A DNA stretch of 64,000 bases from Rhizobium sp. WYJ-E13 (GTDB taxonomy: Bacteria > Pseudomonadota > Alphaproteobacteria > Rhizobiales > Rhizobiaceae): NCBI RefSeq assembly GCF_018987265.1, contig NZ_CP076854.1:1922001-1986000 (forward strand). Direction: 5' to 3'. The position numbers and the translations under genes were made by a program. Of this stretch, positions 55,136 through 64,000 are shown piece by piece (positions within the stretch are counted from its first letter, which is position 1; each line of letters starts with the position of its first letter). The notes below the pieces were generated by a model. That model did no database searches and was not told where the DNA came from. It worked only from the letters and a program-made list of their open reading frames with translations.

Positions 55136-55978
55136 CTATGAAGCGGTCCGTTCCAAAAACGTCGTGATCGCCGCAATGACAATGGCATTTGCTTCCGCAT
55201 GAACCGCGTGGTTCGCTCCAGGCACTTCGAGAAGTTCGCCCTTGGGGATTCGCTCGGCGATCAACCGGGAATGTTTGGGGGGGCAGATCCAGTCCTGCGC
55301 ACCGCAGATAACCAGCGTCGGCACAGGGATGTCCTTGAGACGATCTCGCAGGTCGTAGAGCCGTTCCTTGAAGAGCGCATTGTGAGTTTCCGCATGTAGG
55401 CGCATGGTGCGGGTCCGTTCCAGCGCGGCATCTGGATCGAACTTCTCATAATAAAGCGGCTGCAGTGCGAGCCAGATGAGACGAAGCTCCGTATCGTCCT
55501 TCACCTTGTCGGAAAACATCTTGTCGAGCATCGACAGCGAGGCGCTCGTCGCCTTGTGAAGGCGCTCCTTGAACACCACCATCGCGTCGTCCTCGTGATG
55601 ATAGCTCGCCGCCGTGCCGCGCAGGATCAGCCGGGAAAGGTTATGCCCATATTTGACGCCGTAGGTCAGCGCGATCATGCCGCCGAAAGAACCTCCCTCC
55701 AGGATGATCTTGCGGCCGCCGCACAGGTTCACGCGAAAGGCTTCGACGTCATCCGCCAATTGCTCGAATGTATAGGGCGGCGTCAGGCTGGTCTCGCCGC
55801 ATCCGCGCTGGTCGTAGGCAATCAGGCGGTACTTGTCCGATAGCGGCTTGTAGGCGTTGAATTCGCCGCGGCGGTCGCCGATGCCCCTTCCCCCATGCAG
55901 AGCGATAATGGTTTCCGCGTCGGGATCGCCGATGTCATCGTAGACGAAGGTGGCGTTGTTCAGAGTCACTGTCGGCAT
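55136..55978 (-). CDS. Alpha/beta hydrolase, proline iminopeptidase-like
   Basis: 280 residues from ATG 55978, with GAGGACAATCT upstream; a longer frame overlaps the binding-protein gene. HGGRGIGDRRGEF (oxyanion region), YDQRGCGETS, nucleophile Ser in LEGGSFGGMIALTYG, acid Asp in CGAQDWICPP and His in PGANHAVHAE. No signal peptide, so cytoplasmic. In this operon it may release an amino acid from an imported peptide, amide or ester. Last recognisable gene of the operon. Confidence 0.88.
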   Translation of the reverse strand: MPTVTLNNATFVYDDIGDPDAETIIALHGGRGIGDRRGEFNAYKPLSDKYRLIAYDQRGCGETSLTPPYTFEQLADDVEAFRVNLCGGRKIILEGGSFGGMIALTYGVKYGHNLSRLILRGTAASYHHEDDAMVVFKERLHKATSASLSMLDKMFSDKVKDDTELRLIWLALQPLYYEKFDPDAALERTRTMRLHAETHNALFKERLYDLRDRLKDIPVPTLVICGAQDWICPPKHSRLIAERIPKGELLEVPGANHAVHAEANAIVIAAITTFLERTAS

Positions 55979-56002
55979 AGATTGTCCTCGAACTGGCAAG
56001 CG

Positions 56003-56034
56003 CGCACCCCGCGCCCCCAGGAACGCGGGGTGCG
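56003..56034 (-). other. Intercistronic hairpin after the family 5 binding-protein gene
   Basis: An 11-bp perfect stem (CGCACCCCGCG at 56003-56013 with its complement at 56024-56034), 10-nt loop, between the binding-protein stop and the hydrolase start. No U-run. Same position relative to a binding-protein gene as three other hairpins in this window. Confidence 0.65.
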
Positions 56035-56037
56035 GGA

Positions 56038-62504: not shown

Positions 62505-62509
62505 TGCGC

Positions 62510-63427
62510 CTAGCCTCTCAAAACGAAGTGCCTATTCCCGACCGCCTGTAGCAAGGCATCCTCAGGCGGCAGGTTGGCATTGACGTCGAAAGCGATGGGT
62601 CGGCGGTTGCGCTCGATATCCGGGTCGGGAACCGGGATCGCCGAAAGGAGCGCCTTCGTATAGGGATGCTGCGGGTTCTCGAAGATCGCCTCACAGGGTC
62701 CGATCTCGACGATACGGCCGCGCAGCATCACCGCCACCCGGTGGCACAGGTAGCGGATCATTGACAGGTCATGGGCGATGAAGAGATAGGTCAGCCCCAG
62801 CTCGTCCTGCAGGTCCTGGAACAGGTTGACGATCTGCGCCTGGATCGACACGTCGAGCGCGGTGATCGGCTCGTCCGCAACGATGAAGGCCGGATTGAGC
62901 GCAATCCCCCGAGCGATGTTGACGCGTTGCCTCTGTCCGCCGGAAAACTCGTGCGGATAACGCTTCATGAACGAGGGGTCGAGGCCGACCTTCTTGAAGA
63001 GCGAGGCGACCCTGTCTTGCCGCTCCGACCGCGCCCCGGCAAACCCGTGCACGTCGAGCGGTTCGGCAACGAATTCGCCGACCGTCATGCGCGGATTAAG
63101 CGAAGCATAGGGATCCTGGAAGATGATCTGCATGTCGCGCCGGTAGGGCTTGAGCATCGCCTTGGAAAGACCGGTGATGTTCTTGTTCCTGAAGAGAATG
63201 TCACCGCTTGTCGGTGCCTCGAGCTGAAGCAGCACGCGTCCGGTCGTGCTCTTGCCCGAGCCGGATTCGCCGACGAGGCCGAGCGTTTCGCCGGCCGCAA
63301 TGTCGAAGCTGACATTGTTGACCGCCTTGAACGCAACTGTCGAAGACCCAAACATCCCCCCTCTGCCACCATAGGCCTTGCAGAGCTGGTTGACGGAAAC
63401 GAGAGGGGTGGCGCGAAGCTCGGTCAT
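62510..63427 (-). CDS. ABC peptide-type importer ATPase (OppF/DppF-like)
   Basis: 305 residues from ATG 63427, which overlaps the upstream ATPase stop by 4 nt and has GGAGG upstream. Walker [24 protein letters not shown], signature FSGGQRQRV, Walker B IVADEP and [10 protein letters not shown]-terminal [15 protein letters not shown] is the OppF/DppF extension. Pairs with the OppD-like protein. Confidence 0.93.
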
Positions 63428-64000
63428 GTCTGTGCCTCCATGCGCGCAAGCTCGGCACGCAGGTCGTACCAGGCCGCCACCCGGTGGCCGGGAGTGCTGT
63501 CGGCAGCATCGACAAGCGGCGGCGTTTCCAACCTGCACCGCTCCGTGGCGAAGGGATTGCGCGGCGCGAAAGGATCGCCGACCGGTTCCTTCGTCAGATC
63601 AGGTGGATTGCCGGGAATCTGATAGAGCCGGTTGACACCGCGCCGGCCGCCATGTGGAAGCGATTTCAGGAGGCCCCAGGTGTAGGCGCTGCGCGGATCG
63701 TGGAAAACGGAGCGAACCGGGCCACGCTCCATGATGCGGCCGCCATACATGACCTGAACCGTGTCCGCGAGCCCGGCAACGACGCCCATGTCGTGGGTGA
63801 TCCAGATGACGGTCGTGCCGATCTTGCGTTTCAGGTCCCGAACGAGATCGAGGATCTGCGCCTGGACCGTGACGTCGAGCGCCGTTGTCGCCTCGTCGGC
63901 GATCAGAAGCTTCGGATTGCAGGAAATGCCGATGGCGATCATCACCCGCTGACGCATGCCGCCGGAAAATTCATGCGGATATTGCCGGGCGCGGCGGGCG
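63424..64000 (-). CDS. ABC peptide-type importer ATPase (OppD/DppD-like), N-terminus beyond window edge
   Basis: The visible 192 residues are the C-terminal part: the signature [16 protein letters not shown], Walker [13 protein letters not shown], switch His in [14 protein letters not shown], and the OppD tail ([21 protein letters not shown], with Cys in [11 protein letters not shown]). The frame is open to the right edge. Upstream genes beyond the window should include the two permeases. Confidence 0.9.

Follow-up and report, generated by a model that had tools for sequence, protein, structure and literature searches.

Which substrate would require, within one operon, an oligopeptide-type importer, a molybdopterin oxide reductase, a flavin-dependent oxygenase, a putative cysteine desulfhydrase and a pair of small peroxidase-like proteins? 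The locus that raises this question lies at the end of a 64,000-nucleotide stretch of the Rhizobium sp. WYJ-E13 genome (hereafter the window; contig C2:1922001-1986000 of a 6.9 Mb genome in three contigs). The original prediction, made from the window alone, described nine tightly packed minus-strand genes at 55136-64000; the genes and their tight spacing were found as described, and the family names given to them agree with profile searches. These nine genes are the downstream part of a fourteen-gene operon, all on the minus strand, which carries the core of a widespread and undescribed gene module, LysR-FMO-CMD-AhpD, where FMO stands for a flavin monooxygenase-like protein. The module is found in many soil and plant-associated bacteria and probably serves to digest an oxidised, blocked sulfur amino acid; for the window operon, the reading that we prefer, with a probability of roughly 0.4, is that it builds on this core to break down a sulfur amino acid derivative that is oxidised and blocked. 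Our verdict, drawn from sequence, is that the operon is real and modular and appears both catabolic and mobile.

In the direction of transcription, the genes are LysR, FMO, OppB, OppC, M24, OppD, OppF, BisC, CMD, AhpD, RidA, Cds1, a family-5 substrate-binding protein (SBP) and an alpha/beta hydrolase (ABH). Successive window genes, counted from ABH to OppD, are separated by 59, 76, 3, 19, -4, 4, 5 and -4 bases. The operon continues for approximately 4 kb upstream beyond the window end with the rest of OppD, the M24-fold protein, OppC, OppB, the FMO-like flavoprotein and LysR, which are packed or overlapping on the same strand (LysR overlaps the FMO open reading frame (ORF) by 4 bases). Positions beyond the window are given as coordinates of L009, to which 51999 is added to obtain window coordinates.

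The conserved core emerged from an alignment of four operon FMOs and a search of named species genomes, which returned at least 558 related stretches; locus counts given below refer to the best 80 of these, taken with flanks of up to 10 kb. Gene presence was scored by tblastn with identity thresholds, and with coverage thresholds for the importer, sulfur-neighbour, hydantoinase and opine dehydrogenase counts, while some genes in the locus layouts that had no family search were labelled by eye. Since the flanks are short (14 of the 80 loci are under 21 kb, and L134, L151 and L173 stop close to where the missing gene would be), absence from a locus is no proof. LysR accompanies FMO in 74/80 loci, CMD in 70/80 and AhpD in 74/80, and one or both of the latter two in 77/80. 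Genera with the core include Rhizobium, Mesorhizobium, Bosea, Bradyrhizobium, Pantoea, Erwinia, Klebsiella and Burkholderia; the closest relatives of the window operon among the matches listed, with FMOs 92-94% identical, are those of Neorhizobium petrolearium, Rhizobium terrae and R. cremeum. Three genomes of other genera (G202, G242 and G286) repeat the gene set and most of its order, as do the named genomes: G286 has both Cds1 and RidA, G242 carries Cds1 in mid-operon on the opposite strand and has no RidA, and G202 shows neither within the sequence examined and is absent from the 31 genomes matching Cds1. The core gives a context to the orphan families Avi_7170 and Avi_7169 and, with its fixed gene set of FMO, CMD and AhpD, makes a single unusual cluster part of a module that can be tested.

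Around this core, the module is a mosaic in which Opp with M24 and BisC, Cds1, RidA, hydantoinase A and B, opine dehydrogenase and an amino-acid ABC importer vary. BisC and M24 each occur in 18/80 loci, and these are the same 18; OppB and OppC occur together in 21/80, SBP in 19/80 and ABH in 13/80. Three Bradyrhizobium loci (L168, L171 and L186) hold the core genes plus Cds1 with no Opp match, followed in L168 by an MFS gene. A check independent of FMO, in which M24 was searched at an E-value of 1e-90 against 397 genomes of the order, returned the genome under study together with G202, G242 and G286, all four with the operon; no M24 match was found in five other genomes of the same genus. A single ancestral gene set was rejected, as BisC with M24, Cds1, opine dehydrogenase and hydantoinase AB (HyuAB) each appear in several places on the FMO tree (FastTree, topology read by eye), Cds1 recurring in three separate clades.

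The case for sulfur chemistry begins with the BisC-type molybdopterin S/N-oxide reductase (60234-62504; 756 aa, without an N-terminal extension). Its Tyr109, Trp111 and Ser142 align with Tyr114, Trp116 and Ser147 of dimethyl sulfoxide (DMSO) reductase 1dms in a near-full-length match, the serine being presumably the molybdenum ligand, and the three residues are invariant in 19/19 operon BisCs. As set out in PMC5122715, enzymes with both Tyr and Trp are combined S/N-oxide reductases, while true N-oxide reductases lack the Tyr. Within the DMSO reductase family, the operon BisC thus has the residues predicted for the combined S/N-oxide type, and the S-oxide chemistry originally assigned to it gains support. 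The enzyme is a poor marker for the operon and was rejected as such: relatives at an E-value of 1e-150 occur in 66 of 297 genomes of the order, own genome included, and the neighbourhoods read in 18 further genomes (of the 65 other BisC genomes) show no FMO, CMD or AhpD, the operon appearing only in G202, G242 and G286. The genome under study also encodes a BisC paralogue (46%) in L010 (C2:1850000-1868500), accompanied by an M20 protein, an SbnB/ornithine-cyclodeaminase-like protein, a 3-mercaptopyruvate-sulfurtransferase-like rhodanese and, by eye, GntR, SBP, OppC, OppB and OppDF; this is possibly another organosulfur or opine-type operon, and its rhodanese was counted in favour of a sulfur substrate.

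The second element is the pairing of Cds1 with RidA. The Cds1-like enzyme (57620-58753; 377 aa), a pyridoxal-phosphate (PLP) enzyme of the cysteine desulfhydrase/C-S lyase family, matches NF052478 over nearly its full length with 567.4 bits, just below the cut-off of 600, and carries the motifs of the PALP fold: Lys68, which we take to be the Schiff-base lysine, and SSGST and GTGGT, presumably the phosphate-loop motifs, are invariant in 11/11 sequences. RidA (58757-59143; 128 aa, scanned as an ORF of 58757-59149 before assignment of the ATG start) is an enamine/imine deaminase that exceeds the TIGR00004 cut-off (157.8 vs 106.25 bits), and RidA proteins remove 2-aminoacrylate. Cds1 was found in 10/80 loci and RidA (at least 65% identity) in 5/80, all five with Cds1, which lends support to the functional connection that had been drawn between the two. 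PMC8389258 describes Cds1 Rv3684 as converting cysteine to H2S and pyruvate. Relatives of Cds1 at an E-value of 1e-60 were detected in 31/297 genomes of the order, own genome included. Among 31 other Cds1 neighbourhoods from 30 genomes (one stretch being only 12 kb), 29 are without the operon, which G242 and G286 hold, and Cds1 was therefore rejected as an operon marker; RidA adjoins it in 6/31. Three RidA-Cds1 pairs lie outside the operon (L041, L043 and L044): L041 and L043 have an M19 dipeptidase, a URO-D-family gene (Pfam-tested in L043 only) and, by eye, TRAP transporter genes, and L044 has a TctC-like gene.

Between these enzymes lie the two small proteins of the core. In the AhpD-like peroxidase-related protein (Avi_7169 type; 59163-59741, 192 aa), an E-x11-CVYCxxxH motif is present whose Glu79, Cys91, Cys94 and His98 are conserved in 72/72 aligned sequences, and we take Glu, CxxC and His to be the catalytic motif of AhpD-type peroxidases. 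The protein scores below the cut-off of TIGR04030 (Avi_7169; 173.1 vs 233.15 bits) and above that of the wider TIGR01926 (196.2 vs 81.8), and its CMD-domain partner (Avi_7170 type; 59738-60229, 163 aa), which is without the CxxC motif, remains below that of TIGR04029 (89.8 vs 100.75 bits). Since BisC, Cds1, CMD and AhpD each fall under the cut-off of the named NCBIfam family, they are relatives rather than strict members. Taken as a pair, AhpD with its CxxC and CMD without it resemble the two halves of sestrins; AhpD itself has a weak sestrin (PA26) match below the cut-off (25.8 vs 29.4 bits).

The oxygenase (L009 15451-16941; 496 aa) possesses the two dinucleotide-binding motifs and the fold of a class B flavin monooxygenase (FMO/N-hydroxylase). 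A structural model was built of the L126 protein, 94% identical to the FMO of the window operon (pLDDT 84.5; 29 sequences), and by VIA-align the N-hydroxylases PvdA and KtzI tie with small FMOs, a result compatible with N-oxygenation as well as with S-oxygenation. A second FMO (55% identical; C2:2000381-2001799) is located approximately 10 kb upstream of the operon, in L219 (C2:1991000-2010999), next to a DsbA-like protein, an M19 dipeptidase, a carboxylesterase, LysR and, by eye, ABC-importer genes; L126, L127 and L191 likewise show a second FMO beside M19 and DsbA. A third FMO of the same genome (39%) is at C2:242156.

A hydrolytic step may be carried out by the M24-fold protein (L009 12443-13633). 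Prolidases of family M24 bind two metals through Asp, Asp, His, Glu and Glu; in the operon proteins the last Glu is Ser in 19/19, the second Asp is Glu in 19/19 and the first Asp is Leu or Phe in 18/19, while His and one Glu are kept in 19/19. Because three of the five ligand positions are altered, one of them by an Asp-to-Glu change, an ordinary dipeptidase was rejected, the release of the substrate from a simple peptide became doubtful, and the protein more likely works like the creatinase/ectoine-hydrolase branch. The best NCBIfam score is with archaeal PepQ and the next with DoeA-type ectoine hydrolase, neither coming near its cut-off; ectoine hydrolase opens a ring, according to PMC5924519. 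Hydantoinase A and B occur in 4/80 loci (L133, L153, L163 and L165), and L133 shows the operon in full without M24 or BisC. In the other three the locus stops within the Opp genes, so only L133 displays this form completely, and a general rule that HyuAB replaces M24 and BisC was rejected. Also present in all four are GntR and opine dehydrogenase, beside SBP and Opp of the same families, with ABH in L133, L153 and L163.

The importers provide further, uneven information. The SBP of the window operon (56038-57543, 501 aa; PF00496, 283.8 bits) has 5u4o as its best PDB match (225 bits), followed by YliB 1uqw (139 bits), and SBP similarity was rejected as a predictor of the ligand, the best matches being mixed. 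The corresponding permeases are OppB (L009 14499-15416) and OppC (L009 13630-14487); the ATPases are OppD (63424-64000, cut by the window end; full gene L009 11425-12435) and OppF (62510-63427), whose best NCBIfam score, below cut-off, is with the C-terminal half of GsiA. The commonest alternative is an amino-acid ABC importer, beside the core in 35/80 loci. In one representative, L138, the importer looks cystine-like: the best PDB match of its binding protein is YtmK 2o1m (64.4 bits), then 4gvo, 4eq9 and 4c0r, all of which we take to bind cystine, cysteine or glutathione-type ligands, both permeases score best, below cut-off, with the cystine permease model, and the ATPase scores best with GlnQ and then TcyN. 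The binding proteins of L139 and L177 match best, and weakly, a lysine/arginine/ornithine model, the cystine model ranking third and second, respectively. Some loci also adjoin organosulfur genes. Next to Bosea L145 are SsuC, SsuD, two SsuA and an NtaA/DmoA-family gene, each scoring over its model cut-off; Bosea L147 has SsuD, SsuA and NtaA by similarity, and L135 has MsnO8 and NtaA/DmoA-type luciferase-like monooxygenase (LLM) genes. In control loci, comprising 29 Cds1 and 18 BisC neighbourhoods, SsuD, SsuA and MsnO8 were found in 0/29 and 0/18 and NtaA in 1/29 and 0/18.

Taken together, gene content, gene order, co-occurrence and motifs are the basis from which we infer all six steps of the route that a blocked, oxidised sulfur amino acid may follow. 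SBP and OppBCDF would import the compound; the M24 protein, acting like creatinase or ectoine hydrolase, and ABH might then strip the blocking group or open a ring, and BisC could reduce an S-oxide. FMO would oxygenate the freed amino acid, with AhpD, through its CxxC, and its CMD partner reducing a reactive product such as a sulfenic acid. Cds1 would subsequently beta-eliminate the sulfur group, giving sulfide or a thiol plus 2-aminoacrylate, which RidA would hydrolyse to pyruvate and ammonia. On this scheme the importer and opening modules would vary by species around a constant core. If the sulfur reading is true, root bacteria possess a route for taking sulfur from plant-derived conjugates. 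A wider proposal is a long shot: that the core is a general aerobic breakdown module for sulfur amino-acid conjugates in plant-associated Proteobacteria, a bacterial counterpart of the mercapturate/FMO route, whose BisC-bearing form has BisC and FMO acting as a pair, BisC reducing the imported sulfoxide diastereomer and FMO re-oxygenating the product to the diastereomer accepted by the C-S lyase and AhpD.

Several observations weigh against a sulfur substrate. If sulfur is the target of both, the oxygenase FMO and the S-oxide reductase BisC would run opposite reactions, which is the chief difficulty of the scheme. Three reconciliations are conceivable: the targets are separate atoms; BisC works early, on what is imported, and FMO later, once the amino acid has been freed; or each enzyme takes its own diastereomer, the related MtsZ, DorA and BisC being specific for S-configured sulfoxides (PMC5122715). 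Cds1 has no match in 70/80 loci, and apart from Cds1 the loci have few sulfur-specific neighbours (SsuD 2/80, SsuA-like 4/80, NtaA-like 5/80, MsnO8 2/80), with an NtaA-like gene also in one of the 29 Cds1 control loci. The YtmK match amounts to just 64 bits and the transporter scores lie under curated cut-offs, while the best Foldseek match of the L126 FMO model is the N-hydroxylase SidA, amino-acid N-hydroxylases leading the list. The M24-BisC module is, moreover, separable from the core: a search for M24 in 385 genomes drawn from the class returned the genome under study and G525, whose 20 kb locus (L206) contains M24, opine dehydrogenase, OppBCDF, ABH, SBP, BisC and GntR (the last assigned by eye and similarity) with no FMO, CMD or AhpD match; its BisC is nearer to the own-genome paralogue (56%). 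Finally, a pure sulfur reading fails to explain opine dehydrogenase (PF02317), which stands beside 18/80 loci spread over several genera (Mesorhizobium accounts for 10) and in 0/29 and 0/18 of the Cds1 and BisC controls. These enzymes, whose best PDB match is the N-(1-D-carboxylethyl)-L-norvaline dehydrogenase 1bg6, raise the possibility that an N-substituted amino acid is involved. Their background across 81 genomes of the order is 9 matches, two of which (G040 and G080, one genus) lie directly beside AhpD and FMO and the other seven do not. No PF02317 match was found in the genome under study or in 14 control genomes of the same search, opine oxidases lying outside that search.

These same observations feed a nitrogen-centred explanation, in which the operon family degrades opine-like N-substituted amino acids: FMO would N-hydroxylate the amine, opine dehydrogenase or M24 would split the conjugate, BisC would reduce an N-oxide or hydroxylamine, and Cds1 and RidA would matter only where cysteine is freed. 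The 18/80 association with opine dehydrogenase, the presence of that enzyme in L206 between M24 and OppB, the resemblance of the FMO model to ornithine/lysine N-hydroxylases, the altered metal ligands of M24 and the hydantoinase AB loci, with the full operon of L133 lacking M24 and BisC, are all in its favour. We nevertheless consider this explanation rather unlikely; if it is true, a new opine-type route would be at hand. The exact scheme of the original prediction, in which an S-alkyl-cysteine sulfoxide or its peptide is taken up, BisC reduces it, Cds1 beta-eliminates and RidA cleans up while the other genes play auxiliary parts, seems distinctly improbable. The BisC active-site residues, the Cds1-RidA pairing and the Opp importer agree with it, and together with the cystine-like importer they sustain its broader idea of import coupled to organosulfur chemistry. 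The detailed sequence of steps finds no such support, as it was drawn from a cut operon that missed the conserved FMO, an oxygenase, and M24 is no typical peptidase. Neither BisC nor Cds1 is obligatory, and the two are not tied to each other (only 6/18 BisC loci have Cds1, and four Cds1 loci show no BisC). The neighbourhood Cds1-RidA-Avi_7169-Avi_7170-BisC does recur in other genomes, but all five genes stand together in just 4/80 loci. A stress or repair operon, with AhpD and CMD against peroxides, BisC for the repair of biotin sulfoxide or free methionine sulfoxide and Cds1 as an outlet for excess cysteine, is very improbable indeed. It draws on the AhpD motif, intact throughout, and on reports in PMC5122715 that Salmonella BisC acts on biotin sulfoxide, and less on methionine sulfoxide, and MtsZ on free methionine sulfoxide; the tight packing of an importer with the core in most of the forms examined, importers that differ by species and the rare, patchy distribution of the operon, with no M24 match in the five genomes of the same genus, oppose it.

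Comparison with known systems shows partial likenesses, and no description of this operon was found in the open-access literature searched, in line with the earlier statement that no pathway with this gene set was known; what came up there instead dealt with iron limitation in K. pneumoniae, sulfide in S. aureus and onion thiosulfinates, among other subjects. One such system is the NCBIfam set TIGR04027-TIGR04030 (KPN_01858 LLM, KPN_01854 SBP, Avi_7170 CMD and Avi_7169 AhpD), which we take to form one set and which shares the CMD-AhpD pair, a monooxygenase and a family-5 SBP; it differs in that the operon monooxygenase is FMO-like, not luciferase-like, and in that CMD, AhpD and SBP (102.7 vs 468.5) are below cut-offs. 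The BisC/TorZ-MtsZ/DMSO reductases (TIGR00509) share the Tyr, Trp and Ser and the near-full-length match to 1dms, whereas the operon enzyme is under the family cut-off (769.3 vs 1017.55 bits), belongs to an operon with transporter, hydrolase and FMO genes and accompanies M24 in 18/18 BisC loci. Mycobacterial Cds1 (NF052478; Rv3684) likewise matches over nearly the full length with its PLP-enzyme motifs, but the predicted desulfhydrase of the operon is just below cut-off and stands beside RidA and AhpD/CMD. The B. subtilis ytm/cmo and yxe operons salvage S-alkylcysteine and S-(2-succino)cysteine by means of LLMs and N-acetylation followed by deacetylation. They resemble the present system in combining an amino-acid importer with a flavin monooxygenase for S-substituted cysteine, YtmK being the best PDB match of the L138 SBP, and to our knowledge they contain none of its core genes. 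Opine dehydrogenases and Agrobacterium opine catabolism offer a further comparison: a dehydrogenase related to 1bg6 adjoins 18/80 core loci, while the window's own genome yielded no match.

The Staphylococcus hominis body-odour pathway for Cys-Gly-3M3SH offers a parallel in the uptake of a blocked cysteine S-conjugate, its deblocking and cleavage by a PLP C-S lyase; as described in the available parts of PMC11742315 and PMC7385124, its lyase is the MalY-type PatB, its dipeptidase the M20 PepV, and no dedicated transporter or peptidase is named, nor do FMO, BisC, AhpD or RidA form part of it. The lyase of the operon, by contrast, is a PALP-fold Cds1-like enzyme, no M20 dipeptidase is encoded among the fourteen genes, and no MalY-type PatB was found in the operon, to which that search was confined. 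The Pantoea ananatis OVR-A region, which contains sulfur, redox and oxidative-stress genes, has CMD/alkylhydroperoxidase and DsbA-like genes as well (PMC5817063), and S-methylcysteine sulfoxide is converted by a C-S lyase activity in saliva according to PMC11203769.

At the two ends of the operon, the LysR regulator occupies L009 16938-17942 (longest ORF), and the ABH gene was scanned as an ORF of 55136-55987 and, with its ATG start, corresponds to 55136-55978. ABH (280 aa) is proline-iminopeptidase/enol-lactonase-like, with 90.9 bits to PF00561 and best NCBIfam matches far below cut-offs. Past the operon, on its downstream side, a sugar-type ABC importer lies at 49386-53044 on the minus strand (its Peripla_BP_4 binding protein and a double ATPase were assigned by Pfam, its permease by eye). 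Between the two, directly downstream of the operon, is a DDE transposase gene (PF13546; 53343-54572, plus strand), whose DNA is repeated at 100% identity at C1:3873739-3875146 of the same genome, which suggests a recently active insertion sequence element.

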